DNA from: Polytrichum commune
Lineage: Eukaryota; Streptophyta; Polytrichopsida; Polytrichales; Polytrichaceae
Direction of reading: 5' to 3'
Length of the DNA: 64,000 bases
Assembly (NCBI GenBank): GCA_950295325.1
Contig: OX485809.1
Coordinates: 2,728,001-2,792,000, forward strand
The position numbers were made by a program, and so were the translations under genes. Positions within the stretch are counted from its first letter, which is position 1, and each line of letters starts with the position of its first letter. Shown here piece after piece: positions 1 to 59,695 of this stretch. Under the pieces are notes generated by a model. The model made no database searches. It saw nothing but the letters and a program-made list of their open reading frames with translations, and was not told the DNA's origin.

Positions 1-3000
1 TATACCAAGGACTAGCCAAATATATATCGGCCAAGTACGGTGGTTCACTACACCTACCTAAACTAAAACAACAAGCATGCACAAGATCACCAATAGCGAG
101 AACATTATTTCTCCTAGAACGAGAATACGAAATACACGTCACCACCGCAATCCGTGCATTTCCCATCAAAAACACCCCCCTTGAAGAAATATGGAAAAAC
201 AACCCAACCTATACTAGCCTTACGGACGACTCAAAAAGGAAAACCCAAACATACCTAGACAAACTATATACATACGGCATCACCACAATAACACAAATTC
301 AAAACAAAGACACTAGGGCCATATTAACTCCCGACGAATTCAAGACCATATATAGACACACACCAAGAACCATCAAAGAGGCACTCCAACAAGCCAAAAT
401 ATTATTTCCAAACCCACCACCACCCCCCACACCCCAAAGAACCCACCTCGCACTAGAACAACCAATACCCCCTAGCAACACCCAACACCCAAATATACAC
501 ACACAACACAACCTTGGGAGAGCAATACATACCATAACCCAAGTAAAAACCACTACCAGGAAAGATAAATGGGGGGCCCAAGCTATCCGAAGAACATATC
601 TATGCCAATGGCAATACACACAAGGATCCACACAACAATGGCGCACAGAAGAAGACCTACTACACCCCGACAACATATTGCTCGATCACAACCTACTTCT
701 CATCACACAATACCAACGTAAAATATTAGAACAAAAAGCCACCCAACAATACGCCGACCTCCTAAAATCCTCCCAATCAAAAGACAAACGATTTATACAC
801 CCCCCTCTCAAAATAACTAACCTCACAACATCCACACAAGAGTGCAACCCGGACAAAGATATAATTACCAACAAACCAACCATCCAAATACAAGCCACAA
901 TATCCAACATCTACGATCAAAAAGGGAATTATATAACCTCCCTAAACACTGAAAGACTACAATGGCTATGGAGCCGCTTCTGTGACAACCACCTCCCACA
1001 CCTCGCCAACTTTCTAAAACCCCCACCACAAGACTTTGAAACCGAAATACTATGGCTTATCCAACGATATATAACCATACTCCCCAAGAAAAACCCCAAA
1101 AACATACTACCAAATAACCTACACCACACCCTACACCCAGACATCACCAAACTACTAATAGAATCATATAAAATTACGCACTCATACTACTCTTCCCCCC
1201 TCACATGCCCTATGCAACTTACACAGTACAATTCACCACATAACCGAGACATACTATTTGGCTCCATGGGACACGCGCAGTCCTCCCGCTGGAGAGGAAT
1301 AGGCCTAGCATTCCCCACGGACCACAACACAACCTTAGAAGCTATTCATTGGGCAAGAATGGCAGCCAAAGAAGACACACATACGCTCACCATTCTAATA
1401 GTTAACCACAAAGACTGGACAACACAACCACTACCACTTAATATTAATGAAGACATCCACATGATTGCAACTATACCACCACACACCATACAATATGCTC
1501 CTACACCGGAATGGCCAAAATACTACCAATACATAGAACCATCGCTCACATCCATAATTTGCGTATCCAACCCCGCACACCTATCGATGAATATACAACC
1601 CCCACAAGAACTACAAAATGTCCTAAAGAAAACATTTAACATACACATAGACACCCATCCCATCAAACTCAACACAAAACCCTATAAAGTCAAATTCTCC
1701 AATTCATGGAACAATGCACCTAAAGCAATCCCCCCGCCAATGCATTCAAACCTCAACACACCACCTCTTCCTATTGAATTTAATCACACCCACCCCCTTA
1801 AATTCCAACCACAAAAATGTACATACACGGACGGATCATTTATCCCACCCACCAAAAATTCCGAAGGACAAATAGAAGGTAACACAGCAGGATCAGGAGT
1901 ATATAGTCCCAACAACAACACCCACATAGCAGAAAGACTACCCGGATACCAAAACATCCTAAGAGCAGAACTCAATGCAATACTCATAGCCATCGAAAAC
2001 ATACAAAATACCCAAACAGAAACACATATATTTACAGACAGCCTTAACAGCATATTCCTAATCAACAACCATATACAACACCCCACATCACAACATCACC
2101 ACCCAGATAAATTACTCATAGCGGCCATCATCCGACAAATATATTGGACACCTCACAAAGTACACATACATAAGGTACGAGCACACACAGGCATCATTGG
2201 AAACGAAATAGCCGACGCACTAGCCAATGAAGGGAACCTCAAGGAAAAACCATCCCCCACACCCCACATACACATAGCACACTCAACTCCTTATTGGTTA
2301 GCAAGCTGCCCGACGGCCACGCATGACGGAGCCATACGCAACCTAAACACATTCATAACAAAAGAACACGAATCTCGAGAGACGCAAATAGCCAAACATA
2401 AATTCCCATATGTCGACAAATGGCTCTCAAATGAGCAAATAAACCAAAAACTCTCTAACCATTTTTGGACAAACGACAAAGTAAGCGACGCACAAATTAC
2501 CCAAACACTAAAATTCAGATACGCCCAATACATGGGCAACCATAGGAAAAACATTTTTTGGCCTCTCACACACCAAAACCCCAACTGTACATTGTGCCAC
2601 AAAAATGACAGAGATACGTGGCCCCACCTACTATCCACATGTGAACACCCATACCTAAAAGGATTAAGAATTGCACGACACAACAACGCGGTACACCTCA
2701 TCACCCAAACACTCCAAGCCAACAAAAACACCCGATATTTCACACTAACCAATGCAGGAAAAATTAACAACACAATACCAGAACAAACAATCCCGGACTG
2801 GCTCATTAAATGCTCATGTCAACAAATGCCATGCAATTGCCAAGCTAAACTAAGACCGGACATCCTATGCATAATAGGTGCTCCTAACCAAGCACAAACA
2901 CCCATACTACCCTCCCCAACACACACAATCCAATTTATTGAATTTACATACTGCCATGACAGATTCCCAGAACAAGCAATCACCCGAAAACACACGAAAT

Positions 3001-3248
3001 ATGACCCACTAATCAATACCATACAAAACAATGGATGGAAGACCAACCCTATCATTACCATCACAGCTGGAGTTAGAGGTGCCATCCATGAACACTCCAT
3101 TGAAAAACTAACCGAATTAAAAATCCCTAAATCAAACATCAAACTTCTTATGAAACATTTACACCAAAATGCCATCAAATATCTCACATACTTGGTCCTA
3201 AATAAAAGGAAACTAGATAACAAACAAGCACCCATCCCCCCGCCTTAA
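1..3248 (+). mobile_element. Non-LTR retrotransposon ORF, C-terminal part: RNase H, zinc finger, restriction-like endonuclease (5' end outside window)
   Basis: An uninterrupted frame runs from the window edge (first full codon at 3) to the stop at 3246-3248, over 1,080 codons, with no internal stop, so the copy is not visibly decayed. The first part (3-650) looks like the end of a reverse transcriptase or thumb region, but the catalytic RT motifs lie outside the window. A type I RNase H domain spans about 1818-2240: Asp codon 1830 (TDGS), Glu 1968 (RAELNAI), Asp 2037 (FTDS), His 2184 and Asp 2214 (NEIADAL). A C-x2-C-x9-H-x4-C finger follows (Cys 2586, 2595, His 2625, Cys 2640) and then an R-x2-RHN motif. 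A second cluster, CSC-x4-CNC, begins at 2811. The end resembles a restriction-like endonuclease: RPD (Asp 2859), EFTY (Glu 2940) and K-x2-KY (about 2988-3002). The finger plus RPD arrangement is that of R2-like elements, while RNase H plus this nuclease recalls the Dualen clade of green algae. Clade assignment is inference. Confidence 0.85.
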
Positions 3249-3390
3249 AATTATTATATATACCTATTAGTACACCAGAGCCCACCTCCCCACGGAGGCA
3301 TAACACCTTGTATTGCATCATGGTGCGCTATGATCAATACAAGGTTAACGGGCTCGCATTCATGCCGGTATTAAAATACGGGCGTTATTT
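3249..3390 (+). mobile_element. 3' untranslated end of the retrotransposon with three hairpins
   Basis: Directly after the stop codon there are three inverted repeats. At 3285-3298, CCTCC pairs with GGAGG around a 4-base loop. At 3306-3344, two 10-base arms (CCTTGTATTG and CAATACAAGG) pair, with a bulged C, five more pairs and an 8-base loop. At 3364-3383, GCC-G-GTATT pairs with AATAC-G-GGC with one G-G mismatch. Structured 3' ends are used by some non-LTR reverse transcriptases to recognise their own RNA; that role here is inference. The exact 3' boundary is not visible: a short T run follows at about 3386, and no target-site duplication can be tested because the 5' end is missing. Confidence 0.6.
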
Positions 3391-4330
3391 TTTCTTTCAT
3401 ATCCAGAGGCTCATCCAAGTGGAGGGCACTTCTAACTCTCTTGTATTTTTCTATCCATGTAGAGGACATTCCATCCATAATCTATATTTTACATTCATGA
3501 GCAAACCATTGAAATGCCACAACAGGTGGGAGTTGATGGATGTCTTGCTGCTATCACAACTCATCATCCATTCTCTCGTCACTCATTATGTAGTCCAAAT
3601 TCGATCAACTCATGAACATCATATGAGAATTTTGGATGATATTACATGTCCATGGATGAAAATTATGACAAATTTTGAAACCCTTATGCTCTTGGACGAG
3701 CGACCGTTTATGAACTACACCGTTTATGCTATTTAGTGTCACGTATTATTTGGAATCATGCAACGCAATAATTAAGGACAAACGTTGAGTCATCCACAGA
3801 CTCAAGCTTGTGGACCAAATCTTGGAATTATGGATGATATATCATAGCTTCATGGACAAAAAAATGTGACAAGTTTTCATTAACCCTCTCCTGCTCTTGG
3901 ACAAGTATTTGGTTATGAACTAGATAAGCATCGAGAGGAGAGTGGAGGACGAGCATTGAGTCATCCACCAACCCAAGCTCGTGGATTGTATCTTGGAATT
4001 AGGGATGATATCACGCCTTCATGGACGATAAAATATGACAAGTTTTCATTAACCCTCCTGCTCTTAGACAAGTAATTGGTTATGAACTAGATAAGCAACA
4101 AGAGGAGAGTGGAGGACAAGCGTTGAGTCATCCACCAACCCAAGCTCATGGACTGAATCTTGGATGGAATTTATGGATGATATCACGCCTTCATGGACGA
4201 TAAAATATGATAAGTTTTCATGAATTATGGATGATATCACGCCTTCGTGGACAAAGCTTGTGACGAGTTCGAGTTCTCATAAGCCTCGTGCTCTTGGATG
4301 AGCGATCTGTGAGGATGCTGGGTGACGATG
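3390..4330. repeat. Degenerate tandem repeat, unit about 168 bp
   Basis: The marker TTGAGTCATCCAC occurs at about 3785, 3956 and 4123 (spacing 171 and 167). Each unit continues with GGATGATATCACGCCTTCAT, then a CTCTTGGACAAG-type block and a GAGGAGAGTGGAGGAC block. A more diverged unit lies at about 3600-3740, and a partial unit with an internal duplication of the GATATCACGCCTTC block ends the array (4160-4320). A further diverged copy is recognisable at about 10590-10710 inside a glycosyltransferase intron, so this is a dispersed repeat that is tandem here. No coding potential is apparent. The segment 3717-3742 also matches the terminus of a TIR element found at 34021. Confidence 0.75.
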
Positions 4331-8171: not shown

Positions 8172-11100
8172 CTACTGCGTGTTTGGAACTTGTTCTTCGA
8201 ACCGATTAAGGCGGCTTGTCCAGACTGAATGTAGTATCATATTGAAGATATCATACTTTTCCGGCTTCTCATGCCACACAAAGTGTTGGCGAACGTGCCT
8301 GAGCTGTGATTGCAGGCTCCTGTACTTTGAATCAGGAATGCCCAACAAAATGGATTTCAAGTTAGGGATATCCTTTTCAGGCACTGTGACGGAGAAAGAA
8401 TCCCAGTTAAGTACATCACTGAAAGGGAGAACAAAGTTGTCGGCAATCAGGACGGGAACACAGTCGTAATAGATTGATTCAACTATGCGGGGGCTGTTGA
8501 CCTCAAAGCCCATGGCACATATACAGTACTTGCTGGATTTCATGTGCTGCATGTATGACATCTTTCTTGCAATAGGCTTTGGGATGACCTCAAAAATCTT
8601 CATGTCAGGGTCTTTGTCTTTCCAGTATGCCAGAAGAGTAGGTCTCACCCGGCCGTGCATTTGGCCAGCAAAGAAGGCCAGGATTGGACGTTTATTGTAT
8701 CCTGGTCCTCCTAGCCGCAGAGGCAACTTCTGAGAGTGGAGGTAAACTTCAGGGAGGGATGCATCTTTGCCCAGAATAAACTCTTCACTTACGTCTGCGT
8801 TGCACACCACTTTTACTGCATTCCTTCGCAAAGTGGGATGATCTCGAGCAGTGGCTGGCCCCTGCAGATGAGATGCACTGTAAGATTCCTCCATACATGC
8901 AACTATTGTAAATAACATACCCAACTCTGGACTTGGACCATATGCAATGAAGTCTTGGACAATTACAACATTCTGTGGGGAGCTAACAAACCTCTTTATC
9001 ATAGAACAAATACAAGGAAGATGTATGGGAATTACTGAGGTGCCTAATGTGGGCTTTGTTGATCAGTCTTAGGACCCCTACCATTCTTGGAGTTGTGTGT
9101 TTGCATCGCATGCACCCTGGAGAGTTTTCCTACTCTCTTTTTTGGGTCTTAGGTCTTGACTTTGTATGTTTTTTGAGAGTGTAATAAATTTCATTTATTT
9201 GTCCAAAAAGAATAAAGAAAAGAAAAGGAAAAAGAAAAGAAGATAGGGGATTGCTAAATCAACCACACATTGGTTTAAAAAATCGCAAAGATGTGCTGCA
9301 CGATCACATGACCTACCAAAGTTTGAATAATATTAGTTGTAAGCTGAAATGTAAAGAAAGGAGTAGAGATGATACCTTGCTCCTCTTTGTGTGTGAGATG
9401 AAAAATCAAGTTTGGATAGGTCATGTGACTATGCGACGTGTCGTTGTGGTTGTTTTAAAAAATTATTGGTCGATTTAACAATCCCCAAAAGATAAGGTCA
9501 TCTCAAAATATACTAAGTATTGGTGTTCAAAGTTGAGGTAGTATTGAGACCTATGTGTCATGGTATAACATCTCTCCATTGTGAAGCCAACATATAGCTA
9601 TTGATCCGTTCAACATTGATTCGATTCAAAATTAAACCTTTGAGGTCTTCCAACTATAAATTGTAGGAACAAATTATCAAAAATTGCAACCCTCTAATTT
9701 GTTATAGGTTTCACGAAAGGTGAACATGAAGTGAGCCACCTTTCGTTTTGTGGGCTCACCGAATGTAATAGTCGGATGCTCGAAAAGCTGTGCAGGGAGA
9801 GACAGATTCAGACTAAGCTCCTAGCATCCCACGATTATATTTTGAGGTTACTTACCCAGTCATGGCAGGAGACAAAGAAGTGGTCTGCTCCTTGTGTGCG
9901 GTTCCAGAAAGAATATCGTGAAGCTATAGAATTGACATAGTTCTTGATGAAGCTGGCGAGTGGCAGCATGGTGTGTGAGTTGGGCACATAGAGATGAGAT
10001 ACCATATGCTGCACACTGTAGGGCAAGAAGAACATGTGCGCTTTCCACGGATCCCTCACCAGGTAATTGTTGGGCCTTCGGATGCGCTCCAGGAACTGAC
10101 CCTCCGATGCGTAGATCCCCGTTTTCGGGCCCGAGTGGACCAGTGGCTTCGACCCATCTCTGTATACGTATACCTTGAACACCTTTTCCATCAACTCATA
10201 GCTCCTGTACAGGAACCACCAATCAAACACCTCACTGATGAAATACATATGATATAACAAACTCCCAATCAGTGGTCAATTGAACCCCAAACCAAAGACA
10301 ACGTTCCAGATCCGAGTGCCGAAACAATCAATTATCTAGATATGCGATGGAGACGTAGTTGACGAAGAAAGAAATTCTGCAAGCTTTGCCACATGGTGGA
10401 CTTGGTCATGTCAAGCGATTTTGCTGCCATTTCTTATTCGTAATTGGATGTCAGGAGGCACGATTATTTCTTCTAATTGATGACCTGCCATGGCCTTGAC
10501 CACTATGCACTAGAGAACCAACGAGAGGAGAGTTATCAATTGAGTTGATTATCAATCATGGCCACCTACTCTAACTGGTTATCAGTATTAACCGATTCGT
10601 TCATGAACAAAATTTGGGAATTACGGATGAAATCGCAATTCCATGGGTGAACGATTGTGAAGCGTATTGATAACCCTTTTGTTCTTGGATGGAGAGATCG
10701 ATTATGTCAAGTAATGGGGACAAACATAACATTACGCAGTTGCTATCAATCGTTCCATTCTAGTAATATTGAGTGTTAGTGCTTCACCTGAATCTCACTC
10801 TTTTTTCAAGCTGAATCTACTTATTGACAAACATCTGTAAGATACAATTCTAGCACCTTACATGACATATTCCCGGCCCCACCCACCTTGGTCACTCAGC
10901 TGAACAATCTATGAATCTAACCCTGCCATCAGCTATCGTAAGCACCCAATACCTACTGTTGTGGCAAGGCTCCTTGCATCCATTACCTAGCTCATAGTAA
11001 ATCAATAGTGGCAAGGAGTGACCTACTTGGAGAAGGCTGTGACATTCTTGTAGAGGTTGGTATGCAAATTAGGGTCAGCACAATCTGGAGTTGCTTGGGC

Positions 11101-58835: not shown

Positions 58836-59695
58836 CTTAGGCCAGTTCACATGGGGTCCCAACTCCCAAGTCTCACCCATGTCCACAAGTTTCAACATGG
58901 AGGCAAAGTCCCACCTTTGGAGCCTCGGGAACCTATTAAAGTATGGTTTGTGTCACTTCTTGATTATTTTATGCAAAAAAGATTTGGGATTTGTGTTGCG
59001 AGTTGGGTTTAGTTTTTGCTCAACCCAATTCTCAACACAAGCTTCGAGCATCACCTCCCAAAAAGTGTTGACATGTAGGCATCCAAGCCATACTTGAAAA
59101 CTTAAGACTTGGGACCTTGCGTGAAGTGGTACGTCCCAAATTCCATGCTCTCAATGGCAAAGATTGCACGGATTGACCTCAAGTGAATTGGAACTTAGGA
59201 CTTGGGACCCTATGTGAAGTGGTAAGTTCCAACTTTCATGCTCTCCATAGCTAAGATTGCATGGATTGACCTCAAGTGAACTGGAACTTAGGACTTGGGA
59301 TCGTGTGTGAAGTGGTAAGTCCCAACTTCCATGCTCTCAACCACTAAGATTGCACAGATTAACCACAAGTGAGAATTAGAACTTAGGACTTGGGACCCTA
59401 TGTGAAGTGGTGAATGCCCAACTTCCATCCTCTCAACAGCTAAGATTGCAAGGATTGACCTCAAGTGAACTAGAACTTAGGACTTGGAACCCTGTGTGAA
59501 GTGGTAAATCCCCCAACTTCCATGCTCTCAACGGTTGAGATTGAACGGATTAACCACAAGTGAGTTGGGATGTAGGGATTGGGACCCGTGTGAAGTGGTA
59601 AGTCCCAACTTCCATGCTCTCAACAACTAAGATTGCACAAATTGACCTCAAGTGAACTAGAACTTAGAACTTGGGACCCATGTGAAGAGGGTGGG
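58836..59695. mobile_element. TIR element with its 3' end amplified into a tandem array
   Basis: The left part (58836-59104) is homologous to the solo element at 52551. From 59105 a unit of about 95 bp is repeated: GACTTGGGAC or a variant begins at about 59105, 59201, 59292, 59387, 59482, 59577 and 59669. Each unit holds TGTGAAGTGGTAAGTCCCAA, CTTCCATGCTCTCAA, AAGATTGCA-GGATTGACC and TCAAGTGAACTGGAACTTAG. The last unit stops at the right terminus GGGACCCATGTGAA, the inverse of the left TTCACATGGGGTCCC. So the terminal unit, single in the other copy, is present six to seven times here. Confidence 0.8.

Follow-up and report, generated by a model that had tools for sequence, protein, structure and literature searches.

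A non-LTR retrotransposon of the land plant Polytrichum commune, some 12 kb long, is probably a dual-endonuclease element of the Dualen/RandI type that uses target-primed reverse transcription to move. One copy of it reaches from the left into the stretch of DNA analysed here, a window of 64,000 nucleotides at C7:2728001-2792000 in a genome of 407.8 Mb, of which seven large contigs make up about 406 Mb. In order, the element encodes an apurinic-type endonuclease (APE), a reverse transcriptase (RT), a chromodomain-like stretch, a PCIF1-like stretch, an RNase H, a CCHC zinc knuckle, a CxC-x4-CxC cluster, and the motifs of an R2-type restriction-like endonuclease (RLE). Signs of a land-plant host are found in the assembly itself: a single Aux/IAA locus, matched twice at a distance of 181 bases, a plastid contig in which, as read, matK adjoins psbA, and L1 elements of the zf-RVT type. 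Having just one Aux/IAA locus is in keeping with a bryophyte, and a count of seven chromosomes with mosses of the Polytrichales.

Architecture of the frame and its copies

The plus-strand frame at window positions 3-3248 is the C-terminal part of ORF2, the last 1081 residues of a 2305-residue frame whose 5' side runs off the left window edge. The left-adjoining stretch (L005) holds the rest, with the APE and the RT core. The upstream, N-terminal APE that the preliminary description had thought worth looking for is present, with matches to Exo_endo_phos (PF03372, 5e-07) and Exo_endo_phos_2 (PF14529, 2.4e-07), both above the cut-off and within residues 216-463, and with the catalytic residues TWN, QETK, GDFN and SDH in place. 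The RT follows at residues 831-1099 (Pfam RVT_1, 8.1e-32) with its YADD in place. The RNase H domain lies at window 1815-2234 on the plus strand, which corresponds to residues 605-744 of the window frame and 1829-1968 of the 2305-residue frame (PF00075, 1.8e-15); YTDGSF, RAELNA, FTDSLNS and VRAHTG were all found in it. NCBIfam gave matches to the window element below the cut-off only, to group II RT (1.8e-12), exonuclease III (3e-05), ribonuclease HI and retron RT. Window 1-3250 also has an extreme strand bias: C and A abound on the coding strand, and the initial 2 kb have a GC skew of -0.48 and an AT skew of +0.40.

The frame had been described from the letters alone as an RNase H followed by a C-x2-C-x9-H-x4-C finger and an RPD...E...K-x2-KY region, and all of these are there, the motifs being kept across seven copies. 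The knuckle occupies window 2586-2642 (plus strand; residues 862-880 of the window frame). The RLE-like region, with approximate limits of 2670-3092 on the same strand, includes RHN, RPD at 2853-2861 (residues 951-953), E at 2940-2942 (residue 980), the K-x2-KY at 2988-3002 (KHTKY, residues 996-1000), and GW. The seven aligned copies come from two groups, six of them sharing 41-82% identity with the window copy in the C-terminal region, and there is no variation among the seven in the four knuckle residues, the D of PD, the E, K-x2-K-Y and G-W. The P of PD has turned to H in one row, which reads RHD, and the other six read [RK]PD. The extra CSC-x4-CNC cluster, reported earlier as standing just ahead of the nuclease, was borne out as well (plus strand, 2811-2840; residues 937-946), and its four cysteines are invariant in the seven copies. 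A regular expression for the whole motif series had a single match when the window was read in all six frames and none in 20,000 shuffled versions of the final 330 residues, a result that is descriptive only, because the expression was written after the sequence had been inspected.

In the part of PMC5678591 that deals with it, the RLE of LINEs is given a CX2-3CX7-8HX4C knuckle, an RH at helix one, a KX2KY to which the catalytic K has been displaced, and a GXW; the elements differ from this account in the x9 spacing of the knuckle, against x7-8, and in GW in place of GXW. In the PDB the RLE profile matches R2Bm best, along the knuckle and RHN (E=0.39, not significant); with a narrower profile R2Bm came at E=2.1, with two unrelated chains slightly better, and a single-sequence AlphaFold model of the region (pLDDT 31) was unusable. 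The C-terminus is assigned by its motifs, as a putative PD-(D/E)xK RLE.

There are many relatives of the window copy in the same genome. A protein search gave 43 matches among the 43 scored of 8,919 candidates, and a second, diverged group (L012-L017), reached through the PCIF1 family search, has the same domain order; its identity to the window copy is 22-57% and varies from domain to domain. L014 is open over 2779 residues and L015 over 2724 inside the stretches that were cut; Pfam recognises APE, RT, PCIF1_WW and RNase H in the former and RT, PCIF1_WW and RNase H in the latter, whose APE was recognised by alignment only. The family moved recently, to judge by two more copies that differ from L006 by 22 and 46 mismatches in about 7.7 kb (99.2% and 98.9% identity). 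A likely sibling of the window copy, its 3' end identical at 151 of 151 bases and its 5' end at 97%, stands at C7:30663461-30675620 and is absent from the 43 protein matches. In three scans of viral contigs no relatives of the element were confirmed. Pairwise dN/dS is well below 1 wherever computable (0.04-0.31 overall, five pairs not being computable), with dS of 0.49-3.1 and therefore largely saturated; by domain it is 0.13-0.18 for the APE, 0.04-0.05 for the RT, 0.04-0.31 for the chromodomain-like stretch, 0.10-0.26 for the PCIF1-like stretch, 0.06-0.20 for the RNase H and 0.06-0.12 for the RLE.

The window copy is open across all enzyme domains, yet it is not fully intact, because its 2A-like piece, GDVKPNPGP, sits in another frame than the 2305-residue one; the corresponding pieces are continuous in L006. 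The earlier suggestion of a land-plant relative of Dualen with an intact frame is supported as to the dual-endonuclease architecture and an RT apart from that of plant L1, but not as to intactness. The 2A motif is D-[VI]-E-x-N-P-G-P. It is fitted by GDIELNPGP (L007) and GDIETNPGP (L014), whereas its E is absent from the piece of the window copy and from GDIHPNPGP (L006) and GDIKPNPGP (L015). Such NPGP motifs lie upstream of the APE in L005, L006, L007, L008, L014 and L015, with two in a single frame in L008. A long ORF1 is seen upstream of ORF2, as a frame at 642 in L018 (1153 residues within the cut stretch) and one at 279 in L020 (1302 residues), and ORF1 of two copies gave no Pfam match at E<=1.

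Insertion sites, ends of the copies and transposition

The window copy spans C7:2719125-2731395, or 12.27 kb, and is bounded by a 14-bp target-site duplication, TTCATATCCAGAGG, whose left copy is at L018:611-624 and whose right copy is at window 3396-3409 (plus strand). Three full-length copies, this one included, have duplications of 14, 12 and 12 bp. A fourth full-length copy is inside a minisatellite, which makes its duplication ambiguous, and the 10-bp duplication of a 5'-truncated copy is weak and could be chance alone. The minisatellite, seen in the flanks of L023 and L008 (C1:44779700 and the 3' flank), is made of TTGGTTTAG-like units. To the right of the window insertion there are a tandem repeat just beside it, at 3775-4221 (period 167, 2.6 copies), an exon-like minus-strand frame for an Exostosin GT47 glycosyltransferase at 8175-9062 (PF03016, 4.2e-38), and, at 59099-59687, a tandem array of a 93-bp unit in 6.3 copies that is also visible as a 189-bp period.

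A structured 3' UTR (window 3278-3388, plus strand) and a T-rich tail (3385-3395, plus strand), made of TTTTC units in relatives, are common to the 3' ends of the family. The UTR has four helices with compensatory changes in an alignment of 27 copies, 26 of them distinct. Paired letters fill 97.5% of 832 cells, against 95.5% in shuffled alignments and at most 39% in slid controls; 7 of 32 pairs are changed on both sides (shuffled mean 3.5; 1 of 500 shuffles as high), as are 22 cells (shuffled mean 6.7; 0 of 500 as high), while further pair types are in no excess over the shuffles (186 of 500 as high). Rfam has no match in the window at the gathering score, the sub-threshold ones in 3200-3500 being the only ones there. 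For the insertion sites, 40 of 936 candidate 3' ends were scored and the flanks of 20 fetched, one of which (L043) was misanchored and left unread. In the other 19 the T-rich tail is readable and the flanks, compared by eye, are all different: the target-site preference that the preliminary description had suggested looking for was not seen, and the insertions are dispersed.

At the other end of the window copy, 99 bp lie between the target-site duplication and the first base on which the copies agree. The first 46 of these (L018:625-670) are identical to C6:22198221-22198266, on another chromosome; the remaining 53 bp could be either element or filler. Two other copies have 5' fillers of 59 and 53 bp and the fourth one of about 16 bp. 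The last ~35 bases of the 59-bp filler match many places in the genome, and the 53-bp filler matches only itself. These fillers look like the product of template switching at the end of an insertion.

A cycle can be proposed from what is directly seen, that is, the order of the domains and their conservation, the duplications, the tails, the dispersed insertion and the conserved 3' structure. The protein would bind its own RNA at the folded 3' end, and either the APE or the RLE would nick the first strand, whose 3' end would then prime the RT. The other nuclease would nick the second strand 10-14 bp away, giving rise to the target-site duplication, and the RNase H would clear the template. On reaching the 5' end the RT would tend to run on to a second template and leave a short foreign filler behind. 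What we infer is which strand each nuclease cuts, how the fillers arise, and what the PCIF1-like stretch and the chromodomain-like one do.

It is also conceivable, although unlikely, that the element works as an APE-only LINE, its C-terminus being a zinc-binding relic of an RLE that has no nuclease activity, so that the APE makes both cuts as in L1. The complete set of APE catalytic residues would suit such an element, and so would the dispersed insertions, which are usual for APE elements, and the non-significant profile matches of the RLE region to R2. Against it speaks the invariance of D, E, K-x2-K-Y and GW in seven copies of two groups, with a dN/dS of 0.06-0.12 in the RLE that is unlike that of a relic, an argument somewhat qualified by the loss of the P of PD in one of the seven.

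The PCIF1-like and chromodomain-like stretches

Between the RT and the RNase H the frame holds a stretch that resembles the cap methyltransferase PCIF1 (window 936-1715, plus strand; the Pfam match proper, PF12237, at 1026-1283). The window copy by itself falls just below the Pfam cut-off of 31.1 bits, with 27 bits in the window, 30.8 among the aligned copies and 25.5 in the full 2305-residue frame (PCIF1_WW, 1.1e-05, residues 1566-1651). All eight aligned copies match PF12237 at E<=1, the best at 7.5e-14. When the genome was scanned with this family, all 150 scored places (of 697 candidates) passed the cut-off, and none of 14 control genomes gave a match. Many of the places are in frames of more than 1000 residues, with at least 17 kinds of motif surroundings, and a PCIF1 gene of the host could not be distinguished among them. 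In searches of the PDB, a profile of 27 copies found two entries at E<=10, both of them PCIF1 (7.5e-4 and 0.022), and a profile of eight put the PCIF1 entry 6irx first (E=0.037), with 6irv placed after an unrelated chain.

These results oppose the notion, which we regard as very improbable, that the resemblance to PCIF1 is an effect of chance or composition in an unrelated fold; what can be said for it is the marginal score of the window copy alone, a PDB profile of four close copies in which no PCIF1 was found, and a single-sequence AlphaFold model of the stretch too poor to be used (pLDDT 38). A chance match was accordingly rejected. As judged from sequence comparison, homology to PCIF1 holds over the PCIF1_WW/Pfam region, with the window copy alone being marginal.

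The element differs from the cap-adenosine N6-methyltransferase PCIF1/CAPAM at the catalytic motif. The SPxxC ... FGSxG series and the place of the motif after it can be aligned, but the motif in PCIF1 is NPPF, as given in a passage of PMC8868631, and here the stretch sits inside a retrotransposon and has FPTD, HPPN, HPHN, HPHT or HPYN instead. FPTD is found in the alignments at window 1311-1322 (plus strand) and in all four rows of the window group, HPPN in L014, and HPHN in L013, L015 and L017. A further 20 stretches, chosen for coverage from the 150, have HPHN (8), HPHT (10) or HPYN (2), the motif being caught by a script in 16 and by eye in four. NPPF is in none of the copies read. Because the catalytic NPPF is replaced, methylation has probably been lost or altered, and what the stretch probably still does is bind RNA, perhaps at the cap, without N6-methylation.

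Another explanation would see the stretch as a methyltransferase that is still active and marks the RNA or DNA of the element by means of a new catalytic motif. It could appeal to how strongly the motif place is kept, with HPHN, HPHT or HPYN in 20 of the 20 sampled stretches, to the retained FGS.G-type loop, and to the dN/dS of 0.10-0.26. We think it rather improbable, as the N and the F of the motif reported for PCIF1 in that passage of PMC8868631 are missing throughout the copies read, FPTD being what the window group has.

The chromodomain-like stretch (window 510-698, plus strand) is weaker. Pfam Chromo matches six of nine copies at E<=1, with a best E of 0.0018 that is below the cut-off, and a profile of four copies finds CDYL2 chromodomain chains in the PDB at E 0.03-0.054, beside an unrelated protein at 0.035. 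It may steer the choice of chromatin. Taken together, one could speculate that dual-endonuclease elements of a land-plant lineage took up a chromodomain along with a cap methyltransferase domain of the PCIF1 type, that the former methyltransferase now grips the capped 5' end of the RNA during reverse transcription, and that the 5' fillers are the trace of jumps to other RNAs; this larger picture is doubtful for now.

Relation to Dualen, R2 and plant L1 elements

The RT phylogeny called for in the preliminary description was run with L1 and R2 as references: five of the elements together with three L1 from this genome, two R2 and two rows that resemble maturases, with no Dualen, NeSL, Utopia or RTE. 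In it the elements form a clade of their own (96/99) outside that of the plant L1 of the genome (95/93), with R2 as a third (98/99). The deeper joining is less clear, as the outgroup branches are very long: the grouping of the elements with R2 has a support of 77/77, and neither elements with L1 (p-AU 0.144) nor R2 with L1 (p-AU 0.143) is rejected. A profile of five copies scores highest with R2 A-clade chains (148, 131 and 130 bits), then with L1 ORF2p (88-91 bits, about 1e-24) and R2Bm (80-84 bits). An earlier and stronger contrast, in which a profile of three close copies found R2 only (E<=0.01), was dropped, because this broader profile matches L1 ORF2p as well. The RT is best described from these alignments as a separate deep lineage outside the plant L1 clade of the genome, whose sister would be R2 or L1.

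The least probable alternative by our estimate, an ordinary plant L1 with an odd C-terminal sequence, can draw on the L1 ORF2p match, on the unrejected clade with L1, and on the RNase H that a passage of PMC4640811 reports in plant L1, and it is disfavoured, with its chance look-alike of an RLE, by the conservation of the motifs, by the separate clades of the tree and by the contrast of the profiles, the genome's own L1 RTs scoring 193-198 bits with L1 ORF2p and 51-75 with R2 while the element profile favours the R2 A-clade.

The elements share an N-terminal APE, an RT and target-site duplications with the plant L1 of the zf-RVT type, which has 141 matches in the genome. They differ from it in having a separate RT clade and no zf-RVT match, and L1 in turn is without the RLE series. 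With the R2 group (R2Bm, vertebrate R2) they have in common the best RT profile scores, from R2 A-clade chains, and the CCHC-RH-PD-E-KX2KY series as set out in the cited part of PMC5678591. R2 is defined by an RLE without an APE and by site-specific insertion, whereas here APE and RNase H are both present, the 19 readable 3' flanks are all different, and there is no rDNA target.

The assignment to the Dualen/RandI type is supported by the architecture, in a tree-free comparison with Dualen as described in papers, and by the separation from plant L1. The source paper of this group is said to be that of Kojima and Fujiwara from 2005. A passage of PMC3636483 gives the group an APE and a PD-(D/E)xK-like endonuclease in one element, a layout that the elements here would share through their APE and putative RLE, and the RNase H that PMC4640811 mentions for the group is found in the window element. 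The passage on Dualen in PMC8226300 concerns relatives from Chlamydomonas, while the host here is a land plant. The elements also hold a 2A-like motif and the stretches that resemble PCIF1 and a chromodomain; algal Dualen is known to us by description only. No land-plant Dualen was recognised in literature searches, which covered 40 of the 95 papers that match "dualen", most of them German texts, so its absence from print is unproven. Nor was a PCIF1-like domain in a retrotransposon recognised in these searches, the one paper that matched PCIF1 together with non-LTR elements being about human L1.

If selection maintains a PCIF1-like domain that lacks its catalytic motif, retrotransposons would have a new kind of accessory domain, and one that offers a lead on how LINEs handle capped RNA. 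Dualen has been read, in a passage of PMC4640811, as the link through which the APE replaced the RLE in LINEs. In a land-plant genome with many copies, some of them ~99% identical, it could be asked directly which of the two nucleases is responsible for each nick, and for what reason neither has been lost.
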